Shown: positions 49,532 through 58,006 of the stretch, in pieces
Position numbering within the stretch: the first letter of the stretch is position 1
How the letters are laid out: each line of letters starts with the position of its first letter
Source of the DNA: Haloarculaceae archaeon
GTDB lineage: Archaea > Halobacteriota > Halobacteria > Halobacteriales > Haloarculaceae
Reading direction: 5' to 3'
Assembly: GCA_007122455.1 (NCBI GenBank)
Contig: SKTU01000006.1
Span: 1 to 64,000, forward strand
DNA: 64,000 nucleotides
The notes under the pieces: generated by a model
What the model saw: the letters and a program-made list of their open reading frames with translations, nothing else
Database searches by the model: none
Told to the model about the DNA's origin: nothing
Program-made: the position numbers and the translations under genes

Positions 49532-50580
49532 TGTAGCTCCTCCGCGACGCGCTCCAGCACCGCGACGGCGCGATCGAGCTCGCGGAGCTCGATGTGCTCG
49601 TTCGGCGCGTGATCCAGATCCGAATCGCCCGGGCCGTACGTCGCCATCGGGCAGTCCCAGGCGTCGGCGTAGATGTTCATGTCGGCCGTGCCGGTCTTCC
49701 GAAGCAATCTCGGCGTCCCGCCCGCTCCGCGGATCGCGACCCGGAACGCGCGGGCGACCGGCGTTCGCGGGCTCTGCATCGTCGGCTCGACGGCGTCGTA
49801 CCAGTTCACCGTCCCCGCCCGAAGCTCGGCGTCGGCGATCTCGCGGACCTCGTCGGCGGCGTATCGCGGCGGGACGCGCAGTTGAACCTCCATCGTCGCT
49901 TCGACCGCCAACCCGTCCTCGGACGTTCCGCCCTCCACGGCGACCGGTTTCGGCGTGACGCGCTCGAAGACGGGGTCGTAGTCGTCGGTGTCGAACCGCT
50001 CCTCGACGGCCGACCACCACGCGATGGCGTCCTGAATCGCGTTGTTCTCCGGTCGGGAGGTGTGGCCCGATTCGGAGGTCGCGACGTAGGTCCCCTGCAG
50101 GATTCCTCGGTACCCGAGGGTGATCCCGTCCCACCCGGACGGTTCGCCGTTGACGACGGCCTCGGGCGCCGATCGATCCTCGACGAGGTGGCGGGCGCCC
50201 CGGGAGCCGGACTCCTCGCCGACGACGCCGACGAAGGAGACGCCGCTCCGAACGGCCGCGACCGCCATCGCCGCGAGCGGTCCCTTCGCGTCGACGGAGC
50301 CGCGACCCCACAGCTCCGGTCCGTTTTCGCCCGTCTCGATCCGAACCGGGATCTCGCCGGGCACCGTGTCGACGTGTGAGGTGTACAGTACCGACTCGTC
50401 GGCGGGTGCTCGAACGTTACCGACGTCGTCGATCCGGACCTCTCGCCCGCGTTCCTCGAAGAACGCCGCGAGCGCCTCGGCGCATCGGGACTCCTCGGGC
50501 GTCGGCGACGGGATCGAGACGAGTTCCTCGAGTAGCGACCGCGCCTCGTCGTCGGCCCCGATCGCCTCGGCGTCGCTCAT
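49528..50580 (-). CDS. [LysW]-lysine/ornithine hydrolase (M20 family)
   Basis: LYTSHVDTVPG, GRGSVDAKGPLAAM, GEESGSRGARHL; located in a lysW/arg cluster. Confidence 0.92.
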   Translation of the reverse strand: MSDAEAIGADDEARSLLEELVSIPSPTPEESRCAEALAAFFEERGREVRIDDVGNVRAPADESVLYTSHVDTVPGEIPVRIETGENGPELWGRGSVDAKGPLAAMAVAAVRSGVSFVGVVGEESGSRGARHLVEDRSAPEAVVNGEPSGWDGITLGYRGILQGTYVATSESGHTSRPENNAIQDAIAWWSAVEERFDTDDYDPVFERVTPKPVAVEGGTSEDGLAVEATMEVQLRVPPRYAADEVREIADAELRAGTVNWYDAVEPTMQSPRTPVARAFRVAIRGAGGTPRLLRKTGTADMNIYADAWDCPMATYGPGDSDLDHAPNEHIELRELDRAVAVLERVAEELQ

Positions 50581-51704
50581 CCGATCACGGCCTCCAGTGC
50601 GTCGAGGACGTCGTCGGCGTGCTCGTGAGTGACTGTCAGCGGCGGCAGGAGACGCAGCACCGTTCGTCCGGCGGGGAGCGCCAGGACGCCGTGCTGAAGC
50701 GCTAGCTCGGGAAGCAGCGCGTTCGCTCCGCGCTTTACCTCGATGCCGACCATCAGCCCGTTGCCGCGAACGTCCCGAACCTCCTCGCCGAGCAACTCGT
50801 CGACTCCCTCGTGGAGATACGCGCCGACGTCGGTCGCGTTCTCGGCGAGTTTCTCCGACTCGATGACGTCCAGCGTCGCGTTGGCGGCCGCAGAGACGAC
50901 CGGGCCGCCGGAGAACGTCGAGCCGTGGTTGCCGGCGTCCTCGGCGATCCACTCTCTGACGAGCGTCGCGCCGATCGGCAGCCCGCTCGCGAGCCCCTTG
51001 GCGGTCGTCACGACGTCCGGAACGACGTCGTGGTCCTCGACGGCCCACGTCGTCCCGGTGCGACCGAGTCCGGTCTGGATCTCGTCGGCGATCATGGCAG
51101 CGCCCGCCTCCTCGGTGATCTCCCGAACCGAACGGAGATACTCCGTCGAGGCCGGATTGATCCCGCCCTCCCCCTGCAGCGGTTCGAGGATGACTGCGGC
51201 CGTCTCCTCGTCGACGGCTTCCGCGAGGGGTTCGCGCTCGCCGTACGGGACGAACTCGAACTCGGCCGGAAGCGGTCCGAACCCGTCCTTGTACTCGTTC
51301 TTCCACGTCGCAGCGAGTGATCCCATCGTGCGTCCGTGGAACGCCTGCATCGTCGCGACGATTTTCGAGCGGCCGGTCGCGTGTCGGGCGAACTTCAGTG
51401 CGGCTTCGTTCGCCTCCGTTCCGGAGTTACAGAGCCACACCTTCTCGACGTCCCCCGGTGCGATCTCGGCGAGCCGGTCGTAGAGTCGCGTTCGCTCTGC
51501 GTGCGGATACGACGCCTGCACGTAGAACAGCTCCTCGAGCTGGTCGGTCGCGGCGTCGACCACCGTCGGATGGCAGTGGCCGACCGGCGTGCAGGCGTAG
51601 CTGGCGCCGAAGTCGAGGTAGTCGTTTCCGTTCGTGTCGTAGAGATAAACTCCCTCGCCACGTTCGATGCCGATCGGTTTCTCGGAGAAGACGAAGCTGC
51701 TCAT
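50577..51704 (-). CDS. argD: Acetylornithine / [LysW]-aminoadipate semialdehyde aminotransferase
   Basis: LDFGASYACTPVGHCHPTVVDA, NSGTEANEAALKFARHATGRSKI, ADEIQTGLGRTG. Confidence 0.94.
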   Translation of the reverse strand: MSSFVFSEKPIGIERGEGVYLYDTNGNDYLDFGASYACTPVGHCHPTVVDAATDQLEELFYVQASYPHAERTRLYDRLAEIAPGDVEKVWLCNSGTEANEAALKFARHATGRSKIVATMQAFHGRTMGSLAATWKNEYKDGFGPLPAEFEFVPYGEREPLAEAVDEETAAVILEPLQGEGGINPASTEYLRSVREITEEAGAAMIADEIQTGLGRTGTTWAVEDHDVVPDVVTTAKGLASGLPIGATLVREWIAEDAGNHGSTFSGGPVVSAAANATLDVIESEKLAENATDVGAYLHEGVDELLGEEVRDVRGNGLMVGIEVKRGANALLPELALQHGVLALPAGRTVLRLLPPLTVTHEHADDVLDALEAVIG

Positions 51705-52525
51705 TGTTTCAGTGCGCTCGGAAGGACGTGGGTTCCGCCGCCGGCGAGCGCCGACCGGATCGGTCGGTCCGCGTTGGCGCCGGCGACGACGACCTCGTTC
51801 GCGCCGCCCTCGAGGGCTTCGGTCGCGGCCATCACCTTCCGCGCCATGAACCCTTCGGCGGCCGTTTTCAGTTCCTCGTATCCGTCGAACGTCTCGACGC
51901 GTTCGATCAGCGTCGACGGGTCGTCGGGGTCCCGGTAGACGCCGTCGACGTCAGTCAGCGAGACGAGCGTCCCGCCGAGCGCTGCCGCGACGGCCGCCGA
52001 CGCCCGGTCGGCGTCGGTGTTGACCGCGACCCCGTCGTCCGCCAACATCGGCGGCGACGCGACCGGCGTGTACCCGTCGGCGAGAAGTGCCTCGAGCAAC
52101 TCGGCGTTGACCGACTCGATCGTCCCGGAGTGGTCGCCGCGTCTGATCTTCTTCTTGCCGTCCTCGACGATCCGGACGGCCGACTTGCGCGCCCCCGTCA
52201 GAAGCGCGCCGTCGACCCCCGAGAGGCCGACGGCGTCGACGCCCTGGTTCTGCAGGCCGGTGACGAGGTCGGTGTTGACGAGCCCGGCCATCGCCATCTT
52301 GAAGACGTCCATCGTCTCGGCGTCGGTAAAGCGGCCGACGACGCCGGACGGCGTCTCGACGTATTCCGGTTCGATCCCCATCCGCTCGAGCGCGTCGTCG
52401 ACGGCGGTCGAGCCGCCGTGGACGACCGCGACGTCCTCGCCCTCCTCGCGGAGTGCGGCGACGTCGGCGAGGGCCCCTTCCGGTTCGACGGCGCGAGCGC
52501 CGCCGATCTTGACGACCACCGTCAT
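51701..52525 (-). CDS. argB: Acetylglutamate / [LysW]-aminoadipate kinase
   Basis: VVVKIGGARAVE...VVHGGSTAVDDALERMG, amino-acid-kinase fold, NTDADRASAAVAAALGG. Confidence 0.93.
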   Translation of the reverse strand: MTVVVKIGGARAVEPEGALADVAALREEGEDVAVVHGGSTAVDDALERMGIEPEYVETPSGVVGRFTDAETMDVFKMAMAGLVNTDLVTGLQNQGVDAVGLSGVDGALLTGARKSAVRIVEDGKKKIRRGDHSGTIESVNAELLEALLADGYTPVASPPMLADDGVAVNTDADRASAAVAAALGGTLVSLTDVDGVYRDPDDPSTLIERVETFDGYEELKTAAEGFMARKVMAATEALEGGANEVVVAGANADRPIRSALAGGGTHVLPSALKQ

Positions 52526-53559
52526 GGGGCACCAACGGGGTGAAGCCCCGTGAACTCGAGCCCGGCCCGTTCGTCGATCCCCAACGCGATGTTCGCGGCG
52601 TGGACCGCCTGTCCGGCCGATCCCTTCATCATGTTGTCGATCGCCGAGAAGACGACGATTCGCTCGTTCGTCGGGTCGAGTTCGAAGCCGACCTCGGCGA
52701 AGTTGGAGGCGGCGACAGATTTCGGTTCGGGGTAGCGGTAGACGCCGGAGCCGCCGGCGACGAGCCGAACGAACGGTTCTTCCTCGTAGCTGCCGCGGTA
52801 GGCCTTCCAGAGGTCGCTCTTCGAGACCGGTGGCTCGGGGTAGACGTGACAGGTCGCCGCGGCACCGCGAGTCATGTCGACCGCGTGGGCCGTGAAGGAG
52901 ACCGACAGCCCGAGATACTCCTCGATCTCGGCCTCGTGACGGTGCCCGGTCGGCGCGTACGGTCGAACGACACCGGAGCGCTCCGGGTGCGAGGAAGCCG
53001 CCCCGCCGCCGGCGCCGCCCTCCGAGGAGCCGACCTTCACGTCGACGACGACCCGCTCGTCGCCGTGCAGGATCTCGGCGTCGAACAGCGGCTTCAGTCC
53101 GAGTATCGCCGCCGTGGCGTTACAGCCGCCGGAGGCGATCAGCTTCGCGCCGGGGAGGTTCTCGCGGTTGAGTTCCGGCAGCGCGTATTCGGCCGTCTCG
53201 AGTAGTTCCGGCCGCGCGTGGCCGTCGTACCACTCGTCGTACTGTGCCTCCGTCGGAAGCCTGAAGTCCGCACTCAGATCGACGACGGTGTCTGCCACCT
53301 CCCTGAACGCGTCGATCCGCTCCATCGAGACGCCGTGGGGCGTACACGCGAAGAGCACGTCGACGCTCTCGAGGTCGTCGGGGTTCGAGAACCGAAGCTC
53401 CGTGCCGCGGAGGTTCGGATGGATCGATCCGATCGTCTTGTTCGCCTGGCTCCGGCTCGTCGCCTGGACGACGTCGAACTCGGGGTGGCCTTCGAGCAGT
53501 CGCAGCAGCTCACCGCCCGTGAAGCCGGTGCCGCCGACGACGCTCGCGGCGTAGCTCAC
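52522..53559 (-). CDS. argC: N-acetyl-gamma-glutamyl-phosphate / [LysW]-aminoadipate-6-phosphate reductase
   Basis: GTG start; VSYAASVVGGTGFTGGELLRLLEGHPEF, ASGGCNATAAILGLKPL active-site Cys. Confidence 0.93.
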   Translation of the reverse strand: MSYAASVVGGTGFTGGELLRLLEGHPEFDVVQATSRSQANKTIGSIHPNLRGTELRFSNPDDLESVDVLFACTPHGVSMERIDAFREVADTVVDLSADFRLPTEAQYDEWYDGHARPELLETAEYALPELNRENLPGAKLIASGGCNATAAILGLKPLFDAEILHGDERVVVDVKVGSSEGGAGGGAASSHPERSGVVRPYAPTGHRHEAEIEEYLGLSVSFTAHAVDMTRGAAATCHVYPEPPVSKSDLWKAYRGSYEEEPFVRLVAGGSGVYRYPEPKSVAASNFAEVGFELDPTNERIVVFSAIDNMMKGSAGQAVHAANIALGIDERAGLEFTGLHPVGAP

Positions 53560-54428
53560 GCCGTTACCTCCACCGCGCTCCGCGCCTCCAGCCAGTCGAC
53601 GACTGCGGCGGGGACGTCGACGTCGCTGACCTCGTTGAGCGCCTTGAACTCGACGGTGTGGTTCACCTCGTGAACGGTGTACTCCCCGGAGTTCGGTCCG
53701 CCGACCTCCATGAGGTCGATCCCGAGCAGTCCCCCGCCGACGGCCTCGGATGCGCGCTCGACGAGATCGAGCATCGCGGGCGTCACGTCGATCTCCTCGG
53801 TCGTGGCACCCTTGGCGGCGTTCGTCAACCAGTGATCGGACGAGCGGGCCATCGCCGCGACCGGCTCGCCGTCGGTAGCGACGACGCGTATGTCGCGACC
53901 GGGCTTGTCGACGAACTCCTGAATGTAGAACACCTTGTGTTCGTAGTGCCCCAGCGTCTCCTTGTGCTCGAGGATCGCCTCGGCGGCGTCCCTGGAGTCG
54001 ATCTTCGCCATCAGCCGCCCCCACGAACCGACGACCGGCTTCAGAACGCACGGGTAGCCGAACGACTCGATCGCTCCGAGCGCCGACTCCTTCGTGAACG
54101 CGACCTTCGTCCGGGGGGTGGGGATGTCGGCGTCAGCCAACACGAGGCTGTTCCGTGCCTTGTCGGCGCAGATCGCGGCCGTCTCCGGATCGTTGATCAC
54201 CGGGACGTCGTAGCTGTCGACGAACCGGGTCACGTACCGCGATCGGCTGGTCGCCAGACACCGATCGAGCACGATGTCGACGCCGTCGAACGACGCCGGC
54301 GGTTCGTGGATGTCGAACTGCTCCTTGCGGACGTCGATCTTCGTCACGTCGTGGCCGCGCTCGCGGAGTTCGCTGAGTAGCAGCTTCTCGTCGCGGCGGA
54401 TCCGCGAGTAGAGCACGCCGACGTTCAT
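53556..54428 (-). CDS. argX: Glutamate/aminoadipate-LysW ligase (ATP-grasp, ArgX/LysX)
   Basis: PCVLKPVVGSWGRLMAKIDSRDAAEAI, EFVDKPGRDIRVVATDGEPVAAM, HEVNHTVEFK. Confidence 0.93.
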   Translation of the reverse strand: MNVGVLYSRIRRDEKLLLSELRERGHDVTKIDVRKEQFDIHEPPASFDGVDIVLDRCLATSRSRYVTRFVDSYDVPVINDPETAAICADKARNSLVLADADIPTPRTKVAFTKESALGAIESFGYPCVLKPVVGSWGRLMAKIDSRDAAEAILEHKETLGHYEHKVFYIQEFVDKPGRDIRVVATDGEPVAAMARSSDHWLTNAAKGATTEEIDVTPAMLDLVERASEAVGGGLLGIDLMEVGGPNSGEYTVHEVNHTVEFKALNEVSDVDVPAAVVDWLEARSAVEVTA

Positions 54429-54823: not shown

Positions 54824-56293
54824 TCAGACACGATCAGCCACCTCCGTCTCGAGGGCCGCTTGCGCCTCCTCGAGCGACGAGCGGCGTTCGGCGAGGTCGT
54901 TGGCGTCGTCGGCGATCCCGTCGACGACGCCAACGAGCGAGTCGCGGACGACGTCGGGGGCCGGGCCGCCGGCCGACCGACGCGACGCGACGCTCTCTGC
55001 GGGATCCAGCGCCGCGACGATCTCCTCGCGGTCGACGATCGAGGTCAGCGATCTCCCCAGCGTCTCCGCTGCGGCCTCCTCGAGCGTTTCGACGTCGACC
55101 GACCCGTCGGCGCGCTCGGCGGCCAGTGCCACCGTCTCGTGGGCCGTCCGGAACGGAAGCCCGTGCATGGCCAACAGATCCGCGACGCCGGTCGCCGTCG
55201 AGAAGCCGTCGCCGGCCGCCTCGGTCAGGGCGTCGCGGTTCCACTCGGCCGTCGTGGCAGCCCCGGCGGCGACGTCCGTCGCTTCCCGGACCGCATCGAT
55301 CGCCTCGAACGCGTGGGCGTGCGCCCGCTGGAGATCCCTGTTGTACGCCCGCGGCAGTCCCTTCAGGACGGTCAGCAGGCCGTTCAGTCCGGCCGTCGCG
55401 TCACCCGCCGTTCCTCGAACCAATTCGAGGCTGTCGGGGTTTTTCTTCTGAGGCATGATCGACGAGGTCGACGAGTAGTCGTCGGCGAGATCGACGTACC
55501 CCTTGTTCGCGAAGAGTATCAGGTCCTCGGCGATTCCCGACAGCGTCGTCGCGAGTCCGGCGATCGCCGCGGTCGTCTCGACGAGGAAGTCCCGCGCCGA
55601 GGAGGCGTCCATCGAGTTCTCGACGATCCCGTCGAAGCCGAGCAGTTCGGCGGTCCGTTCGCGGTCGATGTCGAACGGCGTCCCGGCGAAGGCAGCCCCG
55701 CCCAGCGGCGAGCGGTTGAGTCGGTCGTATGCGTCGAGTAACCGCTCGGTGTCGCGAGCCAGCGCCGACTCGTACGACAGGAGGTAATGCGCCACCGTCG
55801 TCGGCTGAGCCGGTTGAAGGTGGGTATATCCCGGCATCACGGTTTCCGTGTGCGGGTCTGCAGCCTCCGTGAGTGCCTCGCGTGCGGCGATCACGGCTTC
55901 GACGGTCGAGAGGACGTCCTCCCGGAGCCGGTAGCGGAGACAGGTCGCCACCTCGTCGTTCCGCGAACGGGCGGTGTGCATCTTCCCGCCGCGCTGGCCG
56001 ACCGCCTCGATGACTGCGGTCTCGATCGCCGCGTGGACGTCCTCCCCATCGGGGAGTTCGCCGTGTCCCGCCGCCTCGACGTCGCGTAGCGCTGCGAGGA
56101 TCGCGGCCGCGTCCTCACCGTCGATGATCCCCTGCTCGTCGAGCATCACGACGTGGGCCCGATCGACCGCGAGGTCGGCAGCGAAGATGCGACGGTCGGC
56201 CGCGAGGCTCGACAGGAACTCGCGGGCGGGGCCGCCGCTGAACCGCTCGCGGCGGACGACGTCGGACGCGTTCGTCGACTCCTCGTCGCTCAT
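54824..56293 (-). CDS. argH: Argininosuccinate lyase
   Basis: HTARSRNDEVATCLRYRL, PGYTHLQPAQPTTVAHYLLSYE, SSIMPQKKNPDSLELVRG. Confidence 0.96.
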   Translation of the reverse strand: MSDEESTNASDVVRRERFSGGPAREFLSSLAADRRIFAADLAVDRAHVVMLDEQGIIDGEDAAAILAALRDVEAAGHGELPDGEDVHAAIETAVIEAVGQRGGKMHTARSRNDEVATCLRYRLREDVLSTVEAVIAAREALTEAADPHTETVMPGYTHLQPAQPTTVAHYLLSYESALARDTERLLDAYDRLNRSPLGGAAFAGTPFDIDRERTAELLGFDGIVENSMDASSARDFLVETTAAIAGLATTLSGIAEDLILFANKGYVDLADDYSSTSSIMPQKKNPDSLELVRGTAGDATAGLNGLLTVLKGLPRAYNRDLQRAHAHAFEAIDAVREATDVAAGAATTAEWNRDALTEAAGDGFSTATGVADLLAMHGLPFRTAHETVALAAERADGSVDVETLEEAAAETLGRSLTSIVDREEIVAALDPAESVASRRSAGGPAPDVVRDSLVGVVDGIADDANDLAERRSSLEEAQAALETEVADRV

Positions 56294-56297
56294 CCGT

Positions 56298-57497
56298 TCA
56301 CTCCTTGCCGTGCTCTATAGCGCGGTTCGCCAGCCGTTCCTGGAAACCGTGGTATTTCGCGACGCCGGTCGCGTCGTTCTGCTCGATGCCGCCGAGGACG
56401 TCCTCGGTGTTGAACGAGGCCGCCTCCGCGGAGTAGACGGCGTACGGCGACTCGCGACCGACCGCGCGCGCCTGACCGCCCTCCAGACGGATCGTCACGG
56501 TTCCGGTGACGCGCTCCTGAGTCTTCGCGATGAATCCCTCGAGGGCACCGACGAGCGGCGCGTCGACGAGTCCCTGATACCCTTTCTCGGACCACTCGTG
56601 GTCGACCTGCTTTTTGAAGCTCCGCTCTTCTTTGGTGAGGACGAGCGACTCCAGCGCCTCGTGGGCCGACAGCAGCACCGTCGCGGCCGGATGCTCGTAG
56701 TTCTCGCGAACCTTCAGTCCGAGCATGCGGTCCTCCATGATGTCGGAGCGACCGACGCCGTAGTCGCCGGCGATATCGTTGAGCGTCTCGATCAGCTCGA
56801 CCGGCTCGTAGGTTTCGCCGTCCAGCGCGACCGGGTATCCCTCCTCGAACGACAGTTCGAGTTCGCGCGTTTCGCCCGTCGGCGCAGTCGTCCACATGTA
56901 GATGTCCTCCGGCGGGACGTAGCCGGGCTCTTCGAGCTCCGATCCCTCGATCGAGCGGCTCCAGAGGTTCGTGTCGATGCTGTATTTCCCCTCGTCGCCG
57001 CCCTCGACGGGCAGTTCGCGCTCTGCGGCGTACTCCTGTTCCCACTTGCGGGTGAGCCCCAGCTCGCGAACCGGTGCGATGACCTCCATGTCGCTGTCGC
57101 GCCAGACCGCTTCGAACCGGAGCTGGTCGTTGCCCTTCCCGGTACAGCCGTGAGCGAGACCGCTACAGCCCTGCTCCTCGGCGACCTCGAGGATCGCGGT
57201 GGCGATCACCGGCCGTGCCAGGGCGGTTCCGAGCGGATAGCCCTGATACGACGCGTTCGCGCGAACGGCGTCGAAACAGAGCGCGGCGAACTCCTCGGTC
57301 GCGTCGACGACGTAATGTTCGAGATCGAGCGCTTCAGCGGTCTCCTCGGCTTCGGCGAACTCGTAGTCGGGCTGGCCGACGTCGACGGTGACGCCGACGA
57401 CCTCGTCGTAGCCGTATTCCTCTTCGAGCAGCGGGACGCAGACTGTCGTGTCGAGCCCGCCGGAGAAGGCGAGTGCGACGCGTTTGGTATCTGTCAT
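56298..57497 (-). CDS. argG: Argininosuccinate synthase
   Basis: VALAFSGGLDTTVCVPLL, AHGCTGKGNDQLRFE, GVGRSDIMEDRMLGLK. Confidence 0.97.
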   Translation of the reverse strand: MTDTKRVALAFSGGLDTTVCVPLLEEEYGYDEVVGVTVDVGQPDYEFAEAEETAEALDLEHYVVDATEEFAALCFDAVRANASYQGYPLGTALARPVIATAILEVAEEQGCSGLAHGCTGKGNDQLRFEAVWRDSDMEVIAPVRELGLTRKWEQEYAAERELPVEGGDEGKYSIDTNLWSRSIEGSELEEPGYVPPEDIYMWTTAPTGETRELELSFEEGYPVALDGETYEPVELIETLNDIAGDYGVGRSDIMEDRMLGLKVRENYEHPAATVLLSAHEALESLVLTKEERSFKKQVDHEWSEKGYQGLVDAPLVGALEGFIAKTQERVTGTVTIRLEGGQARAVGRESPYAVYSAEAASFNTEDVLGGIEQNDATGVAKYHGFQERLANRAIEHGKE

Positions 57498-57583
57498 TGT
57501 ATGTGTTGATGTGGTATGGCGACCGCCAGCCGGACGGCCATCGTTGGAACCTGTGCGAACGCGACTGTGGTGTTGGTACTATT

Positions 57584-57599
57584 CGGGCCTAACGGCCCG
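57584..57599 (-). promoter_or_regulatory. Hairpin CGGGCC-GTTA-GGCCCG overlapping the stop codon of the argG upstream mini-ORF
   Basis: Perfect 6-bp stem, 4-nt loop; contains the TAG of the 27-codon ORF. Confidence 0.6.
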
Positions 57600-57672
57600 G
57601 TCGTCGCGGTCGAGCGAGAAGAGTGGACGCACCGCTGGAACCGATCGTCCCGAAGCGGCGGTGCGTCGTCAT
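57589..57672 (-). CDS. Candidate Arg-rich leader peptide upstream of argG (27 aa)
   Basis: MTTHRRFGTIGSSGASTLLARPRRPGR*; ATG falls at leaderless spacing from TTTAATA; six Arg codons of 27, four in the last seven residues. Confidence 0.5.
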   Translation of the reverse strand: MTTHRRFGTIGSSGASTLLARPRRPGR

Positions 57673-57696
57673 GTACTGAATGGTATCTACAGCCCC

Positions 57697-57710
57697 GTAT
57701 TAAACGTTTG
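57697..57710 (-). promoter_or_regulatory. BRE/TATA element CAAACGTTTAATAC for the argG transcript
   Basis: TTTAATA begins 32 nt upstream of the mini-ORF ATG; no TATA-like element seen just upstream of argG itself. Confidence 0.55.
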
Positions 57711-57817: not shown

Positions 57818-58006
57818 ATGGACATCCCAACGCGTGCCAAAATGGACGTCGAGGACCTCCTGAAGCTGGTGCTCGTTCTGGTGATCGTCTGGATCGCCGT
57901 CCAGATCGCCCTCGACATCCTCGAGTTCGCCTTCAGTGCCCTCGGGTCCGTTCTCGGATTGCTTATCGTCGTCCTCATAATCGCGTACCTGCTCGACTAC
58001 ATATAG
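57818..58006 (+). CDS. Small hydrophobic membrane protein
   Basis: MDIPTRAKMDVEDLLKLVLVLVIVWIAVQIALDILEFAFSALGSVLGLLIVVLIIAYLLDYI. Confidence 0.7.
   Translation: MDIPTRAKMDVEDLLKLVLVLVIVWIAVQIALDILEFAFSALGSVLGLLIVVLIIAYLLDYI

Follow-up and report, generated by a model that had tools for sequence, protein, structure and literature searches.

A putative arginine-sensing leader peptide precedes argG across the Halobacteria

The control of biosynthetic operons by a ribosome that senses the supply of an amino acid is a textbook mechanism of bacteria. In fungi, the arginine attenuator peptide encoded by the arg-2/CPA1 uORF is a conserved peptide that arrests the ribosome at high arginine. Leader peptides without an obvious terminator have been described in Actinobacteria, at the Mycobacterium cys operons and in the LEU element of leuA, and for the Mycobacterium cys case the authors suggested the involvement of Rho (PMC1262725). 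A search of 5.4 million openly available papers, with subscription papers lying outside its reach, returned no account of archaeal attenuation mediated by the ribosome. Rho itself is, to our knowledge, absent from archaea.

The window analysed here, a stretch of DNA of 64,000 nucleotides, is Natronomonas sequence. It carries on its minus strand an arginine operon in the order argG-argH-argX-argC-argB-argD, composed of the following genes:

56298-57497, minus strand: argG, argininosuccinate synthase, the first gene of the operon
54824-56293, minus strand: argH, argininosuccinate lyase
53556-54428, minus strand: argX, of the LysX type (ATP-grasp)
52522-54051, minus strand: argC, with semialdehyde dehydrogenase domains; the start of the listed ORF is probably too far upstream
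51701-52525, minus strand: argB, a kinase; name inferred from position and translation
50577-51704, minus strand: argD, an aminotransferase; name inferred from position and translation

The upstream neighbour, a DUF7554 gene (57842-58006), is in the opposite orientation, and the leader is therefore the start of the operon. It occupies positions 57704-57498 of the minus strand and is laid out as follows:

57698-57704, minus strand: TATA box of the leader promoter, TTTAATA; the box and its spacing are kept in ~100 argG leaders
57589-57672, minus strand: leaderless uORF encoding the leader peptide MTTHRRFGTIGSSGASTLLARPRRPGR and a stop, supported by the frame test
57658-57667, minus strand: 5' arm of the first hairpin (HP1), GACGCACCGC, supported by covariation
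57626-57635, minus strand: 3' arm of HP1, GCGGTGCGTC, supported by covariation
57601-57612, minus strand: Arg-codon tract CGA CCG CGA CGA (R-P-R-R), supported by CGA enrichment; its regulatory role is inferred
57584-57599, minus strand: second hairpin (HP2), CGGGCC-GTTA-GGCCCG, 6 bp, with the stop codon (57591-57589) at the loop
57566-57578, minus strand: G-free segment 3' of HP2, 13 nt here
57556-57565, minus strand: GTCGCGTTCG, which may pair with the Arg tract (57612-57603) as the 3' strand of an outer helix
57516-57541, minus strand: HP3, a stem-loop immediately upstream of argG

The preliminary description had read this region as a promoter followed by a leaderless, Arg-rich mini-ORF and hairpins, and the elements it named are present in the sequence. 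The ATG at 57672 lies ~29 nt from the centre of the TTTAATA box at 57704-57698, as expected of a leaderless start; six of the 27 residues are Arg, four of them within the last seven; and the second hairpin, overlapping the stop codon, was found at 57599-57584. As had also been stated, argG begins about 90 nt further on (position 57497, 91 nt past the stop) with no proximal TATA box, the best score there being 3 of 7. The 10-bp perfect repeat GACGCACCGC/GCGGTGCGTC exists as well, at 57667-57658 and 57635-57626, although the first arm had been placed two positions away. HP1, the Arg-codon run and HP2 all lie inside or overlap the 27-codon uORF, whose 3' codons read CGA CCG CGA CGA CCG GGC CGT TAG; the HP2 loop holds the TA of the stop codon, and the G of the stop opens the 3' arm. 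The leader peptide has a pI of 12. Folded as a single sequence, the leader is mildly stable for its composition (z=-1.8), which is too weak for thermodynamics alone to prove much.

For an estimate of chance, the feature counted was the combination of a TATA-spaced ATG, an Arg-rich tail and a stop codon in a hairpin. This combination occurs once in the window, at the argG leader, and was absent from 20 Markov-simulated windows and from 1.23 Mb of control haloarchaeal sequence (other genes, related genomes, both strands); among 111 non-redundant regions upstream of argG, 65 have it. The observation of a leader in the window is thereby confirmed as real and far above chance. A comparison of argG upstream regions from ~110 haloarchaea found that the TATA box, uORF, Arg tract and HP2 recur as a unit, with uORFs such as MTQTHRSGASVLTGGYSILRRPRPGR (Natronomonas), MATRSTFATFAPLRAAAVRPRRRAL (Haloferax) and MSRPVGSALIRFDTDGSVARRRRRPRPGL (Halobiforma), each followed by a stop. 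In most of the Haloferax species examined, the uORF has 25 codons and lies 137 nt before argG, which in H. volcanii is HVO_0049. Of 300 Halobacteria genomes searched with a covariance model built on the Arg tract and HP2, 244 yield a match, nearly always a single one, and these represent 68 of 78 genera. Of the 46 matches that could be placed relative to argG, 45 are found 60-132 nt before it and on its strand, and the remaining match adjoins a contig break. Judged from these sequence comparisons, the argG leader unit is class-wide in the Halobacteria. Several argG leaders carry extra in-frame inserts. In one argG upstream region the leader has been enlarged by a number of short, repeated hairpins, and no start could be assigned to its uORF.

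The N-terminal part of the leader peptide is not conserved as a peptide between clades, and the last residues vary with the frame of the hairpin (PGR, PGL, RAL, AGRPE, PGSP). This variation bears on whether the leader could be an arrest peptide of the fungal kind, in which free arginine would cause the nascent peptide to stall the ribosome at the stop codon. In its favour, the C-terminus is rich in Arg and Pro and a hairpin holds the stop codon, but no conserved arrest sequence is present, conservation falls instead on the Arg-codon run and on the use of CGA, and the ilvB and pheS leaders described below follow the same logic with other amino acids. An arrest peptide is accordingly regarded as very unlikely.

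The initial leader finder demanded Arg codons, so that no test of the reading frame was possible from its set. In an independent test, the start was assigned by distance from the TATA box alone and HP2 was picked without reference to the reading frame, although the HP2 score does use upstream GAC repeats. Among the 63 leaders in which the frame could be decided, the Arg (CGN) tract shares that of the ATG in 60 (p=2.8e-25). The reading frame is open up to the Arg tract in 68 of 68 leaders, and 62 stop within HP2 or no more than 20 nt past it. The distance between the ATG and HP2 is not fixed modulo 3, all three values occurring, indicating that the frame constraint is on the codon run and not on the hairpin. 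Failure of the frame and the Arg codons to be conserved among relatives had been named in the preliminary description as an outcome that would refute the leader; the test was run, and the prediction of conservation held strongly. Codon choice is skewed: the final 12 codons of the leaders together contain 338 Arg codons, of which 203 are CGA (60%), as against 30 of 1043 in argG (3%; p=5e-116). It is inferred that a rare codon is the choice expected of a starvation sensor.

These results also bear on two explanations in which the codons would have no sensing role. A structured RNA, whether a riboswitch or a protein-binding leader, with an incidental ORF would be in keeping with the presence of several conserved hairpins. 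The leader returned no match at E<=5 in a search of Rfam 15, however, the frame is held in the leaders despite changes in their length, and the hairpins of the argG, ilvB and pheS leaders differ in sequence while their cognate codons match; this explanation is given the least credence of those considered here. The uORF product could otherwise be a small Arg-rich protein acting in trans, or the uORF a translated small gene without regulatory function, and many small ORFs of H. volcanii are located before normal genes and may sometimes be independent units, according to one report (PMC4983044). Strict linkage to argG, a stop codon within a hairpin, a variable N-terminus and a strong choice of rare codons all speak against such a product, for which only a slim chance remains.

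Other operons were checked gene by gene only. In the same genome and across haloarchaea, a leaderless uORF stands before ilvB. Its last residues are Ile-Ile-Val-Gly-Ala or Ile-Val-Gly-Ala, and its stop codon falls in the loop of a GTAGGGGC..GCCCCTAC hairpin, with 34 matches among the loci examined, including those of Haloferax and Natrialba. The tail of this uORF uses the rare codons ATT and GTA, and the hairpin-adjacent Ile codon is ATT in 25 of 33 cases, compared to 6.8% ATT in ilvB (p=1.7e-20). Before pheS, too, there is a leaderless uORF, with GFGFFF or a similar run at its end, in the same genome, in many Natronomonas and in Haloferax, Natrialba and others, and several Natronomonas have a GACGGCGT..ACGCCGTC-type stem 3' of it. 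A conserved box, GAGTCGGAACCGCTAACAG, is located ~20-45 nt before pheS, even in Natronomonas species without a Phe-rich uORF. In Haloferax, a trpS paralogue (a second tryptophanyl-tRNA synthetase gene) has an upstream uORF of 23 codons containing Trp-Arg-Trp (MESTSSANCWRWHASREVDSVSV), which is possibly a Trp leader. No comparable leader was found before trpC, trpD, hisG or the chromosomal trpS in Natronomonas. A conserved GTGTACTnATTTGTACAT motif is located ~30-60 nt before trpD and suggests a protein-binding operator in place of a leader.

Two of these uORFs correspond to uORFs already reported in H. volcanii by Babski et al. (2016, PMC4983044), whose dRNA-seq data place a transcription start before a pheS uORF of 26 aa with a pI of 5.9 and list a 23-aa uORF at a trpS; the pheS uORF of H. 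denitrificans is likewise 26 aa with a pI of 5.9, and the Haloferax trpS-paralogue uORF has the same length as its reported counterpart. In the list of that paper, argG and ilvB are absent from the genes with uORFs, the listed uORF proteins are all of low pI as compared to the pI of 12 for the argG leader peptide, and the section concerned refers to these elements as uORFs without discussing their codon content, conservation or attenuation.

Compensatory stem changes, which the preliminary description had proposed to look for by comparative alignment, are present in HP1. Arms taken from the same leader pair better than arms exchanged between leaders (p=1.6e-9), and double changes are seen within Natronomonas, such as CCCACCGC:GCGGTGGG and CCTACCGC:GCGGTAGG. 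HP2 is nearly invariant, apart from two sequences in which a G-C pair is exchanged for C-G and a few other changes; because most of it is invariant its covariation is not strong, and the modest signal is suggestive only. The outer helix, in which a downstream GTCGCG pairs with the Arg tract and which thus overlaps it, does not vary within Natronomonas. As a covarying terminator it lacks support across the class, own and swapped pairings being equal (p=0.7), and the HP1 3' arm gave no signal as an antiterminator pairing with the Arg tract or with HP2. Among the pairings tested, no competing antiterminator fold was demonstrated. Past HP2, the G-free run in haloarchaea has a median of 18 nt versus 3 nt in background. 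There is no U-run terminator after HP2; the G-free stretch is composed of C, A and T with ~25-30% T, and has no T-run in the window.

HP3 is located ~13-30 nt before argG in most clades without a proximal promoter, and its counterpart in other clades is a pseudoknot. In the Haloarcula-like clades, the last 60 nt before argG contain a probable pseudoknot with covarying helices (GTCGGGT:ACCCGAC versus GACTGTC:GACAGTC), a partial pattern drawn from 32 of 45 sequences. The Natrialbaceae and Haloferacaceae keep the uORF, Arg tract and HP2 and have no HP3, but instead 130-150 nt with a proximal promoter; at least 51% of the long-spacer group score as having a proximal TATA box as against 5% of the short-spacer group. 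Since argG has its own proximal promoter in these two families, the leader is not its sole control there. A conserved GTTAGCnnnCGCTCTA-like motif is also found in them ~50-90 nt before argG, upstream of the proximal promoter, and is possibly a regulator site.

The uORF, its frame and codon choice, the hairpins, their position and their conservation are direct observations. From these it is inferred, with good confidence, that the region acts in cis as a ribosome-sensing leader for the arginine operon, while the response to arginine, the direction of control and the output step are inferences in turn. The observation is confirmed and the interpretation supported, with function experimentally unproven and no argG expression data at hand. 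In the proposed mechanism, transcription would start at or next to the uORF ATG, and a ribosome would load on the leaderless uORF as soon as the 5' end emerges, so that it is translated at once. With ample Arg-tRNA, the ribosome would pass the CGA-rich tract to the stop codon, where it would sit on HP2, and downstream expression would be low. With charged Arg-tRNA in short supply, chiefly that decoding CGA, it would stall within the tract and mask the 5' side of HP2 and any outer helix, the nascent leader would refold, and argG and the operon would be expressed. Based on the dimensions of the ribosome, one halted at the first CGA (57612) is predicted to cover ~57627-57597, which takes in the Arg tract and the 5' edge of HP2. 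The position of the ribosome would decide which downstream RNA folds.

The output is inferred to be continued versus aborted transcription rather than an effect on argG translation or mRNA decay, which is judged probable though by no means secure. That the uORF, the Arg tract and HP2 persist in clades with a separate argG promoter 130-150 nt further downstream favours, by inference, an output at elongation over control at the argG start. Coupling of transcription and translation in haloarchaea has been inferred from interaction-network data in H. volcanii (PMC8576121), and in an H. volcanii reporter 59% of transcripts were terminated by a hairpin (PMC7237163), leaving the possibility open for elongation control without a U-tract. 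The same sensor might have a different output, with the stalled ribosome altering the translation or stability of the long mRNA via HP3 or the pseudoknot by the argG start. The presence of HP3 near argG in most clades without a proximal promoter and of the covarying pseudoknot in the Haloarcula-like clades makes translation control a real rival, as does the absence of a U-tract; it is nonetheless considered doubtful, in that the Natrialbaceae and Haloferacaceae keep the sensing elements with a spacer and promoter at the place of HP3, and pairing of the Arg tract or HP2 with the argG start is unsupported.

It is likely that the argG leader belongs to a haloarchaeal family of amino-acid-specific, ribosome-sensing leader peptides, for Arg at argG, Ile/Val at ilvB, Phe at pheS and perhaps Trp at the Haloferax trpS paralogue, having leaderless uORFs, a stop-codon hairpin at argG and ilvB, and no U-tract terminator. 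Ribosome-mediated attenuation would then be reported for the first time in Archaea, and the finding would extend to a class of leaders across a whole archaeal class. If true, a class-wide archaeal case built on leaderless uORFs would show functional transcription-translation coupling, or another archaeal use of the stalled ribosome. With predicted cognate codons in three leaders, the proposal is testable in the tractable Haloferax.

The haloarchaeal leader shares with the bacterial attenuators of trp, his, ilv, leu and pheST a short uORF after the promoter, a run of cognate codons, hairpins inside and after the uORF, and a location before the first gene of the cognate operon, and leaders of ilvB and pheS occur in both domains. 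The argG leader differs from them in being archaeal, in its leaderless start, in a stop codon inside the second hairpin, in a G-free C/T/A stretch in the place of the U-tract, and in having no proven terminator/antiterminator switch. The earlier statement that the region resembles a bacterial attenuation leader is thus upheld by its conservation, the covariation of HP1 and the ilvB and pheS leaders, whereas the stronger statement that it is one cannot be sustained: in the absence of a U-tract terminator and with an alternative fold unproven, it is not classed as a classical attenuator. Like the fungal arg-2/CPA1 uORF it lies upstream of an arginine gene, but here the codons are conserved and the peptide is not. 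The Actinobacterial leaders belong to other genes and have other sequences, yet they are like the argG leader in their codon run near the stop, their lack of a U-tract terminator and their GC-rich genomes, and the LEU element, with a pseudoknot before its gene, has a further likeness to clades of the argG leader.
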